Below, one piece after another: positions 3,027-32,522 of a stretch of 38,298 bases of DNA. Source of the stretch: Verrucomicrobiota bacterium (GTDB lineage Bacteria; Verrucomicrobiota; Verrucomicrobiia; CAIQCK01). The translations under genes were made by a program, and so were the position numbers. The stretch spans positions 1 to 38,298 of the forward strand of contig JACRKA010000039.1 in the NCBI GenBank assembly GCA_016219905.1. The letters are read 5' to 3'. Positions within the stretch are counted from its first letter, which is position 1, and every line of letters begins with the position of its first letter. The notes under the pieces are model-generated. The model saw nothing but the letters and a program-made list of their open reading frames with translations. It made no database searches and was not told the origin of the DNA.

Positions 3027-3093
3027 GTGGCGCAAGCTCCCAGCTTGCGGTCGTTGATGACAACAGGATTCGCAAGCTGGAAGCTTGCGCCAC
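3027..3093. repeat. Nested palindromic interspersed element
   Basis: Arms 3027-3049 and 3071-3093 are inverted copies matching at 22 of 23 positions, separated by 21 bases. Each arm is itself a small palindrome (CGCAAGCT / AGCTTGCG around 2-3 bases), so a single strand can fold as one long hairpin or as two adjacent short ones. It lies between the 3' end of the Tat oxidoreductase and the 5' end of the glycosyltransferase. The design resembles bacterial REP-like non-autonomous repeats; I see no transposase. Confidence 0.8.
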
Positions 3094-7246: not shown

Positions 7247-7406
7247 TGAAATCCGAAGTTCGAAACCGCGAAAGCCGAAAGAAACTCGAATTTCGAATGA
7301 CGAAGGCTGCGCCGGGGAGGGGTCAAGACTGTTCAGCTTGCTGCCGCCGTTTCGAGCTTCGAGTTTCGGACTTGTTTCGGATTTCGACATTCGGATTTCG
7401 GATTTT
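7247..7406. repeat. Composite CGAAA-heptamer repeat element with inverted ends
   Basis: Two stretches rich in 7-8 base units of the form YYCGAAA face each other: 7247-7305 in direct orientation on the plus strand (for example AAATCCGAAGTTCGAAAC) and 7350-7406 in inverted orientation (TTTCGGATTTCGACATTCGG). About 45 bases of unrelated sequence lie between. It fills the gap between the stop of the HtpX-like gene and the start of the small membrane protein. Related heptamer arrays occur inside two genes in this window (13436-13471 and 30776-30810). Confidence 0.75.
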
Positions 7407-7417
7407 CCGCCCACCGC

Positions 7418-8356
7418 TCACGCTGACGCTCCCATCGCCTCCAGCCGCTTGATGCGCTCCTCGATTGGCGGATGCGTGCTGAACCACGAGTTCACACGCC
7501 CGCCGTGGGCCATCAACGGGCTGACGATGTAGAGGTGCGCCGTCGCCTTGTTGGCCGCCTCCAGCGGCTCCGTGTCCGCGCCGAGCTTGCGCAGCGCGTC
7601 GGCGAGGCCCTTCGGGTAGCGCGTCAGCCGCACGCCGTTGGCGTCGGCCATGAACTCGCGCTGCCGGCTCACCGCCGCCTGGATCAGCGCGGCGACGATC
7701 GGCGCGAGGATGGCCAGGATGAGGCCGATGACCAGGAACACCAGCACCGCCGCGCCGCCGCCGCGCCCGTCGCTGCCGGATCGCCGGCTGCCGCCAACGC
7801 CCCGCCACCGCAGCGAGCGCAGGAACCAGTCGCTCAACAACGTGATGACGCCGACCATCACGACCACCAGGCTCATGAACCGGATGTCGTAGTTCTGGAC
7901 GTGGCTCATCTCGTGCGCGATGACCCCCTCCAGTTCGGCGCGGTTCAGCCGGGTCAGCAGGCCGCTGGTGACGCAAACCACCGCGTGCTGCGGGTCGCGC
8001 CCGGTGGCAAACGCGTTCATCGCCGTGTCCTCTATTATATAGGCGCGCGGCTTCGGCACGCCCGCGGCGATCGCCAGCCCTTCGATGACATTGTCGAGAA
8101 ACGGATACTGCTCATGCACGACCGGCCGCGCGCCGGACATCGCCAGCACCATGCTGTCGCTGTGGTAGTAGCTGATCCACGCCGAGCCGCCGGCGAAAAT
8201 CAACGCCAGTCCCGTCGCGAAGCCGGGATCACCCAAGACGACGCCGAACGCCATGCCGAGCGCCCCGATGATCAGGATGAAGAAGCTGCACAGCACGATG
8301 CTGCGGCGCTTGTTGCTGGCGATGGCGTCGTAGAAACTGACGTTCACGGGCTGCAT
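7418..8356 (-). CDS. htpX: M48 family membrane zinc metalloprotease, HtpX-like
   Basis: A 312-residue protein with family length. Two N-terminal membrane segments (about 19-40 and 46-62) precede the zinc site HEMSH (His148, Glu149, His152), then a membrane segment after it, a Gly/Ser/Arg-rich loop (GVGGSRRSGSDGRGGG) and another at about 202-228. The third ligand is Glu234 in REFMADAN, as in HtpX. HtpX degrades misfolded inner-membrane proteins with its active site on the cytoplasmic face. The start at 8356 is the first ATG after a long non-conserved upstream stretch and has an AATGAT box 6 bases before it. The Gly-rich loop is longer than I would expect but is in a variable region. Confidence 0.88.
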   Translation of the reverse strand: MQPVNVSFYDAIASNKRRSIVLCSFFILIIGALGMAFGVVLGDPGFATGLALIFAGGSAWISYYHSDSMVLAMSGARPVVHEQYPFLDNVIEGLAIAAGVPKPRAYIIEDTAMNAFATGRDPQHAVVCVTSGLLTRLNRAELEGVIAHEMSHVQNYDIRFMSLVVVMVGVITLLSDWFLRSLRWRGVGGSRRSGSDGRGGGAAVLVFLVIGLILAILAPIVAALIQAAVSRQREFMADANGVRLTRYPKGLADALRKLGADTEPLEAANKATAHLYIVSPLMAHGGRVNSWFSTHPPIEERIKRLEAMGASA

Positions 8357-8362
8357 CGTAGC

Positions 8363-8368
8363 ATCATT
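8363..8368 (-). promoter_or_regulatory. Possible -10 box of the HtpX-like gene
   Basis: AATGAT on the minus strand ends exactly 6 bases before the ATG, the spacing seen at other leaderless genes here. I see no good -35 hexamer, so this is weaker than the other examples. It overlaps the promoter region of the divergent alpha/beta hydrolase gene. Confidence 0.3.
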
Positions 8369-8372
8369 TGGA

Positions 8373-8400
8373 TTGCGCGACCATCGCCGCCGCCTACAAT
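8373..8400 (+). promoter_or_regulatory. Promoter of the alpha/beta hydrolase-SDR operon
   Basis: TTGCGC (8373-8378) and TACAAT (8395-8400) are 16 bases apart. The predicted transcript begins near 8407 and has a 21-base leader without a Shine-Dalgarno. Confidence 0.45.
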
Positions 8401-8427
8401 CCGCCCAACTCCGAAACCACTGCCGCC

Positions 8428-9459
8428 ATGGACCTGCAACAACCTCCCCCCACGCTCCCGCCCGACGCGCCGAAGCTTGCCGCCATCGCCCCCGCCGACG
8501 TGGCCCAATGGCGCAAGCGATGGACGCAATTCCTGTTTGGCGGCGAACTGCCACAGGGTGGGCCGGGCGTCCCGCACGGCCAATCATCAACAATCGCCGC
8601 GCGGGACGCGCGGCCCACTCTGAACGTCCGCGAAGACCGCCGCGACGGAACCAACGACGTTGAGCGCATCCACATCACCTACGATGTCGAACCGGGCGTG
8701 GCGACCGAGGCCTATGTGCTGCGCCCGAAGAACGCGACCGGCAAACTGCCCGGCGTTGTCGTCTTTCATCCCACCTCGACGCAAACCATCGAGCGCTCCG
8801 GCGGACTGGACGCGTCCGTGGACCGCAACATGGGCATCCATCTGGCCCGGCGCGGCTACGTGGCGATTGTGCCGAAGAATTTCCTCTGGGGCGCGGCGGG
8901 CGAGGCGCCGCCGGCAAACGCCGGCCGGAAGTATTACGAAGGCGAGGTCGCGAAGATGCAGCAGCGCCATCCGAAGTGGAAAGGCATGGCCCGCATGGTC
9001 TGGGACGGCATCCGCGCCGTGGATGTCCTCGTCGCGCGGCCCGACGTGGACCCGGCGCGCATCGGCTGCATCGGCCATTCGCTCGGCGCGAAGGAGTCGG
9101 TCTTCCTGCCCGCCTTCGACGGGCGCGTGAAGGCCGCCGTGTCCAGCGACGGCGGCATCGGGCTGGGCCTTTCGAACTGGCACGACCCGTGGTATCTCGG
9201 CCCGGAGATCCGCGCGCCGGGATTCGAGCTTGAGAACCACCAGCTTCTGGCGATGATGGCGCCGTGCGCGTTCCTGCTGGCGGCCGGCAAGGACGACAAC
9301 GAGCGTTCGTGGCCGTTCATCGCGAGCGCGCTGCCACTGTGGAAATCGCTCGGCGCGCCCGGCGCGGTCGGCTGGTATCGCCACACCGCCGGCCACAACT
9401 GGCCGCCGGACGCGCAAGAGGTTGGATACGAATTCTTCGACCGATACTTGAAACGCTGA
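8428..9459 (+). CDS. Alpha/beta hydrolase (dienelactone hydrolase/acetyl xylan esterase-like)
   Basis: A 343-residue protein. The nucleophile elbow is GHSLG (Ser218), with the acid probably Asp289 or Asp290 ([11 protein letters not shown]) and the base His323 (TAGHNWP). The oxyanion-side strand is VVVFHPTST near 110-117. No signal peptide is evident at the chosen ATG. Residues 43-65 ([20 protein letters not shown]) are encoded by an inserted palindromic repeat and are absent from the fold's expected core, but the frame stays open. Only 4 bases separate its stop from the SDR gene, so the two are one transcription unit and may act in sequence on an ester and the released hydroxy compound. The substrate is unknown. 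Confidence 0.82.
8555..8621. repeat. GC-rich palindromic element inserted in frame inside a gene
   Basis: Arms 8555-8575 and 8601-8621 are inverted copies matching at 19 of 21 positions (outer part AGGGTGGGCC / GGCCCACTCT), with a 25-base centre containing AATCATCAACAATC. It lies wholly inside the alpha/beta hydrolase gene and contributes 22-23 codons without a stop. Confidence 0.75.
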
Positions 9460-13030: not shown

Positions 13031-13945
13031 GTGGAATTCGTCGTTCGCGATTTCGACCTGCGGCACACGCTGGAGTGCGGCCAGGCGTTCCGCTGGCAGC
13101 GGCAGCCCGACGGCGCCTATCGAGGCGTCATCGGCCGCCACGTCGTCCGCGCCGCGCAACGCAACAGCACGCTCTCGCTCGACGGCGCACCGGCGGGAAC
13201 GTTGAGGGACTACTTCCAGTTCGACGCGAACCTCGCGGCGATCATCGCCACGTTTCCCGCAGACGAGCACATGCGCCGCGCGGTGGCGTGGTGCCACGGC
13301 ATGAGGCTGCTGCGGCAGGACCCGTGGGAGACACTCGCGTCGTTCATCTGCTCGGCGACCAAGCAGATCGTCCAGATCCGCCAGATGGTCGCGAACCTTT
13401 GCCGCGCCTTCGGGGAACCGGTCCCGCCGGGCGGGAAATCCGAAATCCGAAACTCGAAATCCGAAACTGAATTTGCCTTTCCCGTCGTCGTGGCCGTGGC
13501 GCGCGCCACGGAGGCGCAGCTTCGCGCGTGCAAGCTCGGCTTCCGCGCGAAGAACCTGCTCGCGGCGGCGCGGATGATTGACGCGGGCGAAGTGCGGCTC
13601 GGCGCGGTCGGCGCGATGGACTACCCGCGCGCCGCGGAGGAGTTGATGCGGCTGCCGGGCGTCGGGCCGAAGATCGCCGACTGCGCGCTGCTGTTCGGCT
13701 GGGGCCGGCAGGAGGCGTTTCCGCTGGATGTGTGGATCGAGCGCGCGTTGCGGCGGCTTTACTTCCGCGGGAAGCGGCGCGTGACGCGGCGGCGGCTCGT
13801 CGAGTTCCACCGCGGCTATTTCGGCCCGCACGCCGGCTACGCGCAGCAATACCTGTTTCACTACGTGCGGAACAACCCGCAGGAACTGGAGACGGCCGGC
13901 GGTCTCAGCGCGCGCCGTCCTGGCGTCTGGCGCAACAGCGTTTGA
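13031..13945 (+). CDS. OGG1-type 8-oxoguanine DNA glycosylase/AP lyase
   Basis: A 304-residue protein starting at GTG. It has the N-terminal CGQAFRW (16-22) that matches the GQxFRW of OGG1, then the helix-hairpin-helix LPGVGPKIADC (208-218) with Lys214 as Schiff-base nucleophile and Asp233 (PLDVW), equivalent to human K249 and D268. It should excise oxidised purines, mainly 8-oxoG, and nick the AP site. Residues 136-146 (KSEIRNSKSET) are encoded by a CGAAA-heptamer repeat in a loop between the two helical halves; they have no counterpart in the family. The last 41 bases overlap the 3' end of the DoxX gene on the other strand. Confidence 0.88.
   Translation: MEFVVRDFDLRHTLECGQAFRWQRQPDGAYRGVIGRHVVRAAQRNSTLSLDGAPAGTLRDYFQFDANLAAIIATFPADEHMRRAVAWCHGMRLLRQDPWETLASFICSATKQIVQIRQMVANLCRAFGEPVPPGGKSEIRNSKSETEFAFPVVVAVARATEAQLRACKLGFRAKNLLAAARMIDAGEVRLGAVGAMDYPRAAEELMRLPGVGPKIADCALLFGWGRQEAFPLDVWIERALRRLYFRGKRRVTRRRLVEFHRGYFGPHAGYAQQYLFHYVRNNPQELETAGGLSARRPGVWRNSV
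13436..13471. repeat. In-frame CGAAA-heptamer array in the DNA glycosylase gene
   Basis: Four tandem 7-base units of YYCGAAA at 13439-13466 (TCCGAAA, TCCGAAA, CTCGAAA, TCCGAAA) with an AAA before and a partial unit after. It encodes KSEIRNSKSET and matches the copy in the M28 peptidase gene at about 33 of 35 positions, in the same strand sense and the same reading frame. Confidence 0.85.
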
Positions 13946-29747: not shown

Positions 29748-32522
29748 ATGCAGCTTCCACGATTGTTCATTGCGGCAGCGGTCGCGCTTGCGTTCCTGCC
29801 CGCCTTTGCCAACGACGCCGACACCGAGGCGCGCCACCTGCGCCGCATCAAGCAACTCACCTTTGCCGGCTCGCGCAGTGGCGAGGGCTACTTCTCGCCC
29901 GACGGCAGGCAGATCGTCTTCCAAAGCACGCGGCCGCCGCAGAAACCGGGTGAGGCAGAGAATCCGTTCTACCAGATCTTCACGATGGACCTGCGCGACG
30001 GAGTGCTGCGGCGGATCAGTCCCGGCGCCGGCAAGACCACCTGCTCCTTCTTCCGGCCCGACGGCAAGCGCGTGCTCTACGCCTCGACACACCCCGACCC
30101 CGACGCGCTGAAAAAGCAGCGCGAGGAGATCGAGGTCCTGAAGAACGCCCACGGGCGCCGCTACCAGTGGGACTTCGACGACGCCTACGACATCTTCGAC
30201 TGCAAACCCGACGGCAGCGACCTGCGGCGGCTCACCAACGCGAAAAGCTACGACGCCGAGGCGGGCTATTCGCCCGACGGCAAGCTCATCTGCTTCTGCT
30301 CCAACCGCGACGGCGACCGCGAGATCTACGTGATGGATGCTGACGGCGGGAACCCGCGGCGCGTCACGCGCGACCCCGGCTACGATGGCGGGCCGTTCTT
30401 CTCGCCGGATGGCAAATGGATCATCTACCGGCACTTCACGCCCGACGACAAACAGGCGGAGATCACGATGGTCCGCGTTGACGGCACGGCCAAGCGGCAG
30501 GTGACCAAGCTCGGTGCGATGAGTTGGGCGCCGTATTTCCATCCGGGCGGCAACTGGATTGTGTTCTGCTCGAACAAGGACGGCGGCCACGCGAACTTCG
30601 AACTTTACGCCATCAAGCCGGACGGCACGCTGCTGACGCGGCTGACCTACACCGACGGCTTCGACGGCCTGCCGGTGTTCTCGCCCGACGGCACAAGGCT
30701 GATGTGGACCTCCACGCGCGCCGGCGGCAAGTCGCAGCTTTTCATCGCCGACTGGGTCGAGCCGTGGAGTTTCGGAAAATCCGAAACTCGAAACTCGAAA
30801 TCCGAAATCAAGAAGACTTTCGACCCGGCGCGCATCCAAAAGGAGATCGCGTTCCTCGCCTCGCCCGAACTGCAGGGCCGCAAGACCGCGTCGCCCGGCG
30901 AGAAGAAGGCGGCAGCGTTCATCGGGAAGAACTTCACCGCGAGCGGCCTGAAACCGGCAGAGCATCCGTTCACGTTCCAATCCGGCCTCGGCGTTGGTAT
31001 GAGCAATCTATTCGAGGTGACGCTCGGCACGGAGAAGCTCGCCAGCGCGATTGACAAGGACTACACGCCGCTGGCGCTCTCGGCCAACGGCGAGGTCGAA
31101 GGCGAGGTGGTGTTCGCCGGCTACAACATCGTCTCGGAAGGCTACGATTCGTTCGCCGGGCTGGACGTGAAGGACAAGATCGTGCTGGCGCTGCGGTTCC
31201 AGCCGGAGTCTGCGCCGGAGAAGGAGAAGCAGCGGCTGCGCCACTTCGCGCCGCTGCGGATGAAGGCGATGCTCGCGCGCGACCGCGGCGCGAAGGCGTT
31301 CCTGACGTTCACCGGGCCGAGTTCGCTGCCGACCGACCAGTTCGTCGGCCGCAAAGGCGACGGCAGCTTTGCCGACAGCGGCATCGTCGCGGCGCAGATC
31401 TCGCGCTCGCTCGCCGTGAAGATGTTCGCCGCCGCCGGGAAGGACATGAAGGCCGCGCAGGACGCGCTCGACAAGCTGGAGACGCAGGCGGGCTTCGCGC
31501 TGCCGGGCGTGAAGGTGAAGCTGCGAGTGGATTTGAAAAAGGAAACCGCCGCCAGCCGCAACGTCTGGACGCTGGTCCGCGCCAGCGCGACCAACCGCGT
31601 CAACGAGGTCGTTGTGGTCGGCGCGCACTACGACCACCTTGGCCTCGGCGGCGACAATTCGCTCGGCGACGGCCTCGAGGCGGTGCATCCCGGCGCGGAC
31701 GACAACGCCAGCGGCACGGCGGGCGTGCTGGAACTGGCGCGGCATTTCGCGGGCCGGCCCAAGTCGCTGCGGCGCGACGTGCTCTTCGTCTGCTTCAGCG
31801 GCGAGGAGATCGGCACGCTCGGCTCGTCCGCGTTCGTGAAGAATCCCCCCGTGCCGCTCTCCAACATCGTCGCGATGGTGAACATGGACATGATCGGCCG
31901 CCTGCGCGACGGCCGGCTCGCGGTGCAGGGCGCAGGCTCGGCGGCGGTCTGGCCGGCGATGGTCGAGCGCCACGCCGCGCCGCTGCCGCTCGGCGTCACG
32001 CTCGGCAACGACCCCTACCTGCCGACCGACTCGATCGTGTTCTACCAGAAGGGCATCCCGGCGCTGAACTTCTTCACCGGCTCGCACTACGACTATCACA
32101 AGCCTAGCGACACCGCCGATAAGATCAATGCCTCCGGCGAAGCGGACGTGCTGGAGCTGGTGCGGCGCGTCGTCGAAGACCTCGCCACGCGTCCCGACCG
32201 GCCGCGCTACGAGAAGGTGACGGGGCCGGCGGCCGAACTGGGCCGCGAGGTGTTGCGCGCGTATCTCGGCACGATTCCCGACTACACCGAGACCAGCCAG
32301 CCGGGCGTGAAGCTCAGCGGCGTGCGCGGCGGCAGCCCGGCCGAGAAAGGCGGGCTGAAGGCGGGCGACGTGATTGTGAAGTTCGGCGCCAAGGACATCC
32401 GCAACATCTACGACTACACCTATGCGCTGGAGGGCGCGAAGATCGGCCAGCCGGTCGAGATCGTCGTGCAGCGCGAGGGCAAGCAGGTGCCGCTGAAGAT
32501 CACGCCGGAACAGAGGAAGTGA
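29748..32522 (+). CDS. Exported TolB-like propeller, M28 zinc peptidase and PDZ protein
   Basis: A 924-residue protein. Signal peptide (about 1-21), then at least six PD40/WD40-like blades with the repeating SPDGKxI motif (YSPDGKLICFCSNRDGD, FFSPDGKWIIYRH, FSPDGTRLMWTS; about 40-335), a linker made by a CGAAA repeat (342-355), and an M28 aminopeptidase domain: HYDH near 626-629, GADDNAS near 651, GEEIG near 686, NMDMIG near 712 and SHYDYHKPSD near 780 supply the two-zinc ligands and the catalytic Glu. A PDZ domain (about 853-915) closes it. It likely degrades peptides in the periplasm or outside. The same domain order exists in relatives, so the join is probably old. Confidence 0.88.
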   Translation: MQLPRLFIAAAVALAFLPAFANDADTEARHLRRIKQLTFAGSRSGEGYFSPDGRQIVFQSTRPPQKPGEAENPFYQIFTMDLRDGVLRRISPGAGKTTCSFFRPDGKRVLYASTHPDPDALKKQREEIEVLKNAHGRRYQWDFDDAYDIFDCKPDGSDLRRLTNAKSYDAEAGYSPDGKLICFCSNRDGDREIYVMDADGGNPRRVTRDPGYDGGPFFSPDGKWIIYRHFTPDDKQAEITMVRVDGTAKRQVTKLGAMSWAPYFHPGGNWIVFCSNKDGGHANFELYAIKPDGTLLTRLTYTDGFDGLPVFSPDGTRLMWTSTRAGGKSQLFIADWVEPWSFGKSETRNSKSEIKKTFDPARIQKEIAFLASPELQGRKTASPGEKKAAAFIGKNFTASGLKPAEHPFTFQSGLGVGMSNLFEVTLGTEKLASAIDKDYTPLALSANGEVEGEVVFAGYNIVSEGYDSFAGLDVKDKIVLALRFQPESAPEKEKQRLRHFAPLRMKAMLARDRGAKAFLTFTGPSSLPTDQFVGRKGDGSFADSGIVAAQISRSLAVKMFAAAGKDMKAAQDALDKLETQAGFALPGVKVKLRVDLKKETAASRNVWTLVRASATNRVNEVVVVGAHYDHLGLGGDNSLGDGLEAVHPGADDNASGTAGVLELARHFAGRPKSLRRDVLFVCFSGEEIGTLGSSAFVKNPPVPLSNIVAMVNMDMIGRLRDGRLAVQGAGSAAVWPAMVERHAAPLPLGVTLGNDPYLPTDSIVFYQKGIPALNFFTGSHYDYHKPSDTADKINASGEADVLELVRRVVEDLATRPDRPRYEKVTGPAAELGREVLRAYLGTIPDYTETSQPGVKLSGVRGGSPAEKGGLKAGDVIVKFGAKDIRNIYDYTYALEGAKIGQPVEIVVQREGKQVPLKITPEQRK
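30776..30810. repeat. In-frame CGAAA-heptamer array at the propeller/peptidase junction
   Basis: Heptamer units TCCGAAA, CTCGAAA, CTCGAAA, TCCGAAA encode KSETRNSKSEI, nearly identical to the glycosylase insert in both base sequence and frame. It sits exactly between the last propeller blade and the first helix of the M28 region. Confidence 0.85.

Follow-up and report, generated by a model that had tools for sequence, protein, structure and literature searches.

A heptamer array within a verrucomicrobial 8-oxoguanine DNA glycosylase gene as the probable arm of a dispersed palindromic repeat

The glycosylase gene and its heptamer array

The window, by which we mean the whole 38,298-nt stretch of Verrucomicrobiota DNA that was analysed, contains at positions 13031-13945 on the plus strand an intact gene for an OGG-type 8-oxoguanine DNA glycosylase of 304 amino acids. 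The assignment is based on the Pfam domains OGG_N (1e-20) and HhH-GPD (2e-10), on the match of the product to the structure 4ejy (9e-49), on alignment and on an AlphaFold2 model. At positions 13439-13466, the gene carries on the same strand the array TCCGAAA TCCGAAA CTCGAAA TCCGAAA, which is flanked by GGGAAA on the left and by CTGAATTT on the right and which was also detected by Tandem Repeats Finder. The two-unit pattern YYCGAAAYYCGAAA occurs six times in the window and in none of 100 dinucleotide shuffles, and thus the heptamer units are not a product of chance. The four YYCGAAA units are read in frame and encode the peptide KSEIRNSKSET (13436-13468, plus strand), which an earlier note on this DNA had placed in a loop without counterpart in OGG1 proteins. 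Indeed, close OGG relatives at 71-74% protein identity lack these residues (GEPFEAGGRNEFAFP vs GEPVPPGGKSEIRNSKSETEFAFP), and the alignment with the OGG family that the note had proposed yielded a net insertion of 27 nt, corresponding to nine codons. An OGG insert of the heptamer type was found in one genome.

The residues K214 and D233, which we take to be the catalytic equivalents of K249 and D268 of OGG1, are invariant in an alignment of 40 sequences, from which one locus with a stop codon was left out. The AlphaFold2 model, which was derived from 40 verrucomicrobial OGGs, has a mean pLDDT of 91.7. The insert region (residues 131-140) reaches a pLDDT of 68, the C-terminal tail being the sole other weak block, and is located in a turn joining two short strand or bridge segments. 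Given the confidently predicted fold and the invariant residues, the enzyme looks functional. Judging from model and sequence, the glycosylase is probably still active with its insert, which is likely to be near neutral.

In the earlier note, it was further argued that the heptamer is unusually safe to land in genes because no unit creates a stop codon in any of the six frames. The premise is correct, as none of the 256 possible four-unit YYCGAAA arrays contains a stop. However, 8264 of all 16384 heptamers (50%) are equally stop-free as four-unit arrays, because a heptamer array cycles through only 14 codons. As 7 equals 1 modulo 3, the cyclic peptide is SEIRNPK in each of the three sense frames and ISDFGFR in every antisense frame. 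With half of all heptamers sharing it, a stop-free design was dismissed as a special feature of the repeat. The property permits insertion and does not point to an adaptation to genes.

A dispersed element with two heptamer arms

The genome is available as a fragmented metagenome bin that is 89% complete. A search of all 4.88 Mb for the three-unit pattern with one mismatch allowed gave 135 forward and 134 reverse matches, and reversed controls gave none. In 609 kb of contigs, a sample that is enriched for arrays because the contigs were chosen for holding them, 55 heptamer sites could be delimited. Of these, 33 have the anatomy "+-", none has the anatomy "-+" and 20 are single arms. The 33 two-armed elements are 126-182 bp long and consist, from left to right, of a YYCGAAA arm, a loop and a TTTCGRR arm. 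In a frequent layout, four units are followed by a 4-nt spacer (CAAA or GAAA), by as many as three further units and by a loop of variable sequence, after which comes the mirror image; arm blocks are either four units long or four units plus 4 nt plus three units. The elements start with GAAATCCGAAA and finish with TTTCGGATTTC. At the four outer positions the commonest spelling is TC-TC-CT-TC in both arms, and the OGG copy is identical to it.

When folded as hairpins, the 33 two-armed elements have a mean z of -5.8 relative to shuffled sequences. Their median distance to a gene is 9 nt on the stop-codon side versus 46 nt on the start-codon side (p = 2e-4). Their enrichment between convergent genes was weak (p = 0.10) and was not retained. 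Pairwise covariation between the arms beyond their shared positional spelling was not detected (p = 0.83). Covariation was thus discarded as proof of a selected RNA hairpin, since the arms share the consensus spelling only. By analogy, the full elements probably act, or drift, as REP/BIME-like hairpins at the 3' ends of genes. The window itself contains a complete two-armed element at positions 7248-7405 (heptamers at 7252-7402), 15 nt past the stop codon of the minus-strand gene 7418-8356. This element, inverted repeat I6, folds with a z of -4.8, and the corresponding site of a sister species is also occupied. A separate intergenic palindrome at positions 3027-3093, with the 23-nt arms GTGGCGCAAGCTCCCAGCTTGCG and CGCAAGCTGGAAGCTTGCGCCAC, resembles another repeat family.

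Could the arrays be independent local microsatellites that grew by slippage, site by site? They are tandem 7-mers, and some bacteria have an excess of heptamer repeats (PMC4692102). However, one and the same unit recurs at dozens of sites with a fixed two-arm polarity, the blocks come in the two standard lengths, and the arms share the spelling TC-x-CT-TC. Moreover, 491 kb of unselected verrucomicrobial OGG loci contained no heptamer arrays except for one weak match. Local slippage was ruled out as the origin on account of the dispersal and the shared arm spelling, and we give it hardly any weight. The TC-TC-CT-TC spelling of the OGG array, being the commonest among the arms, argues that the array arrived as a copied arm and was not grown by slippage, which from the sequence is the most likely history. 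We consider it quite probable that the OGG array is a single arm, kept in frame in a tolerant loop, which derives from a dispersed palindromic repeat with tandem YYCGAAA arms.

The genome encodes seven Y1_Tnp proteins. No heptamer element was present within about 1.5 kb of the four Y1-transposase genes that were checked, and a RAYT link was dropped for this reason. With respect to the features of MITEs, the inverted arms are present. Among the orthologous sites compared with the sister species, none was a clean empty site showing a target duplication; the sole unoccupied one (L146 7098 vs L243) is too diverged for a duplication to be recognised.

Copies inside genes

Based on gene calls from a home-made coding-potential model, nine of the 22 single-arm or other sites are located in genes, compared with one of the 33 two-armed elements (Fisher p = 6e-4). 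Nine of the ten in-gene copies are hence single arms, of 21-53 nt, and the two-armed exception is L124. Seven of the nine single arms are read in the sense and two in the antisense direction; the two-armed copy is read in both. The hosts are unrelated. According to Pfam, they comprise the OGG, an M28 peptidase, an inositol monophosphatase, an AddB-like nuclease, a HEAT-repeat protein, a PQQ-propeller protein and the topoisomerase VI subunit B, in addition to three proteins without a Pfam match. The M28 peptidase gene lies in the window (29748-32522, plus strand; PD40 repeats, peptidase M28 and PDZ by Pfam and gene calls) and carries a second single arm of four units in frame at positions 30780-30807 on the plus strand. 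In the sister species, this copy also has four units, in another spelling. The earlier note mentions neither this array nor the one at 7252-7402, nor the dispersal of the repeat over the genome.

Two side observations concern in-gene repeats. First, three of the ten hosts act on DNA (the AddB-like nuclease of L113, the topoisomerase VI subunit B of L146 and the OGG), which recalls the bias of REPs, in a small sample. Second, a dienelactone-hydrolase-like gene (8368-9459) contains in frame, at window positions 8554-8622, a palindrome with 27-nt arms of 89% complementarity, which looks like a further in-gene repeat. Its version in the sister species differs, and within the 609 kb sampled its short core does not clearly stand out as multicopy.

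These distributions suggest a simple scheme. Full elements form strong hairpins between genes, mostly just past stop codons. In genes, usually one arm is left; either a single arm would have been copied in, or an unstable palindrome would have lost its loop and the other arm. Such arms would survive only if they alter the length by a multiple of three in total and if they lie in a tolerant loop. The OGG loop is such a place, an exposed turn that has repeatedly accepted unrelated repeats in Verrucomicrobiota.

Stability between species

The sister genome G001 is about 87% identical, and about a dozen orthologous sites could be compared by means of at least one flank. Nearly all of these sites carry a heptamer or related array in both species; the array at L146 7098 is missing from the sister species (L243). 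The OGG gene was not found in the sister assembly, and the in-gene comparison is therefore confined to three other arrays. The window array at 30780 and its counterpart L158 have four units each without any change in length (0 nt), spelt TC-CT-CT-TC here and TC-TC-TC-TC in the sister. The pair L117/L195 also differs by 0 nt, and the sister copy has decayed by point mutation. In the pair L146/L151, the sister has 39 additional nucleotides in frame, the extra sequence being the inner half of the element. As regards the topoisomerase VI-B copy, the sister has the inner half plus TTTG, whereas this genome has the outer arm only. It can be stated that in genes only length changes that keep the frame were observed in the three orthologous pairs. 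Between genes, the pair L001/L250 shows length differences of 29 and 14 nt, which indicates that heptamer units do change over species time. At another intergenic site (L008 1469-1594 vs L183 9330-9480), the two-armed architecture has been kept, with TCCGAAA here and GGCCGAA in the sister in both arms. This respelling looks as if units change in concert or as if the site had been refilled by a subfamily.

These comparisons bear on the suggestion that the OGG array is a phase-variable contingency locus, in which 7-bp slippage would switch the enzyme off and on and thereby create a reversible mutator state. The deduction behind it is mechanically right, since the gain or loss of one unit truncates the OGG at codon 149 or 180, and the intergenic differences of L001/L250 (29 and 14 nt) are in line with changing unit numbers. 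However, the in-gene arrays that could be compared, the OGG not being among them, show length differences of 0, 0 and +39 nt, none of which alters the frame, and thus the phase-variable mutator is unsupported. Likewise, the variable unit number in coding sequence between close strains that marks phase-variable SSRs was not seen in these three species-level pairs, to which the OGG does not belong. Typical contingency repeats are longer than the four-unit OGG array, whose units are moreover imperfect (TC/CT), and this array belongs to a dispersed arm that recurs in many unrelated genes. A fast on/off switch is not supported by the sequences, and we regard a contingency locus as very improbable. 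Of the comparison with related genomes that the earlier note had suggested, the absence of the insert from near OGG relatives was borne out, whereas unit numbers that change the frame were found at none of the three other in-gene arrays. Taken together, the observation made in that note holds and its interpretation mostly does not.

Distribution of the heptamer pattern

The three-unit pattern was detected in 17 of 93 relatives and, in a survey across the phylum, in 15 of 289 genomes; many of them have just one or two copies. Lineages with high copy numbers are scattered among families, and the anatomy with a plus arm on the left and a minus arm on the right was also found in two other families of the class. 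The arrays might also be read as sites to which a chromosome-organising or regulatory protein binds, in which case the in-gene arms would be functional. The class-wide distribution, patchy but recurrent, is compatible with this proposal, as is the fact that the CGAA core is kept and the other three bases vary. By contrast, the in-gene copy L117/L195 decays freely in the sister species, the intergenic site L008/L183 is respelt throughout, and most genomes of the phylum (survey of 289) lack the pattern altogether. Binding sites thus appear to be an unlikely explanation, and a dispersed repeat with one arm in the OGG gene is still preferred.

The OGG loop as a recurrent landing site

To place the insert in its family context, the loop was surveyed in 81 OGGs, i.e. 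in the window protein and 80 verrucomicrobial relatives. The loop has a median length of 17 residues, and in 17 of the 81 proteins it is enlarged in frame to at least 22 residues. Elsewhere in the OGG, insertions of at least six residues occur in three of the 81 proteins, at two sites. The OGGs of L066 and L072 have a 37-residue insertion after window residue 46, a second rare position. Most of the long loops consist of palindromic repeats that are unrelated in sequence and distinct from the heptamers. The mean hairpin z is -3.1 for the long loops versus -0.3 for normal loops, and near-perfect palindromes are present in the loops of L069 (-107 kcal/mol), L043, L045, L062 and L070. Unrelated palindromic or repeat-like inserts in frame were identified in this loop of the OGGs of L037, L038, L043, L045, L048, L050, L054, L056, L062, L065, L069, L070, L085 and L092.

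Several of these inserts belong to repeats of the respective genomes. The motif GTAGGGCRGGCWKTCC was found in 12 of 14 insert-bearing genomes, in up to 32 copies, and palindromes of the type CTCTCCCC...GGGGAGAG in eight of ten, with up to 39 per genome; control matches were zero in both cases. As for the heptamer and both GTAGGGC variants, the genomes that bear them in OGG have multiple copies of them. Regarding the CTCTCCCC family, there are 27 copies in the L050 genome, two matches in that of L070, a single one for L056 and none for L048, and its multicopy status is well supported via L050. By eye, up to nine sequence families occupy the loop position.

As the inserts at this one site are unrelated, they represent independent events. 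The simplest reason for their recurrence is that the turn tolerates insertions. A bolder proposal is that unnamed heptamer-armed palindromes colonise genes as half-elements and that the OGG loop is a true hotspot, which up to about nine unrelated families, three or four of them counted as multicopy, would have entered in frame and independently of each other, as though insertion favoured repair enzymes or this site. We advance it tentatively, giving it somewhat less than an even chance.

Relation to known repeats and significance

A text search of 5.4 million open papers for the heptamer repeat sequence or its peptides gave no match. Among the closest parallels are the Rickettsia palindromic elements (RPEs), which are dispersed, about 150 bp long and inserted in frame in tolerant protein regions of unrelated genes (PMC10969869). 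In-frame palindromic repeats in Rickettsia genes go back to Ogata 2000 and 2002, as summarised in the same review (PMC10969869). The likeness is one of description: here, there are 33 dispersed two-armed palindromes of 126-182 bp with a z of -5.8, and the element lies in frame in ten genes of different families, only one of which has both arms. Unlike in RPEs, the arms are tandem heptamers, the in-gene copies nearly always have one arm and the host belongs to the Verrucomicrobiota. RPE-4 and RPE-6 have CGTC tags (PMC3733652), which the heptamer element lacks.

REP/BIME sequences with GTAG or CGTC tags (Di Nocera 2013) are located downstream of genes, where opposed pairs form larger hairpins (PMC3733652). 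They also occur inside genes, many of them for replication or repair, including uvrA of the verrucomicrobium Opitutus terrae; in recB of two Xanthomonas, REPs are present at about the same site, and a mutator effect has been suggested for in-gene REPs (PMC3733652). The main text of that study does not name OGG and contains no match for "glycosylase". The heptamer element resembles REP/BIME in its proximity to stop codons (median 9 nt) and in occurring as "+-" pairs only. In contrast to REPs, its arms are 7-bp tandem arrays without a GTAG or CGTC tag, and no RAYT lies near heptamer elements at the four Y1_Tnp genes checked. Lacking the tag and, at the four genes checked, a transposase link, it is not filed as a REP and, as far as the analogy goes, would work like one in position and hairpin only. 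The GTAGGGC... inserts in the OGGs of other genomes do resemble GTAG repeats. The heptameric repeats of Xanthomonas and Nostoc (GGGAATC, GGGGAYT) and the cyanobacterial STRRs lie between genes, some as inverted repeats, and the former are G-rich, form quadruplexes and are depleted in coding regions (PMC4692102). They differ from the heptamer element, which has a fixed two-arm anatomy and half copies in genes.

RPEs and REPs thus already provide examples of in-frame palindromes in genes, those for repair among them; what is new is the OGG loop as a recurrent landing site. An apparent mutator switch has turned into a case of repeat DNA that became protein sequence. Moreover, the OGG loop offers a natural series, in which one position of a fold holds several unrelated repeat families and near relatives serve as empty controls. 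This series makes it testable whether in-frame palindromes in repair genes are tolerated or alter repair, a question that was raised for REPs in 2013.
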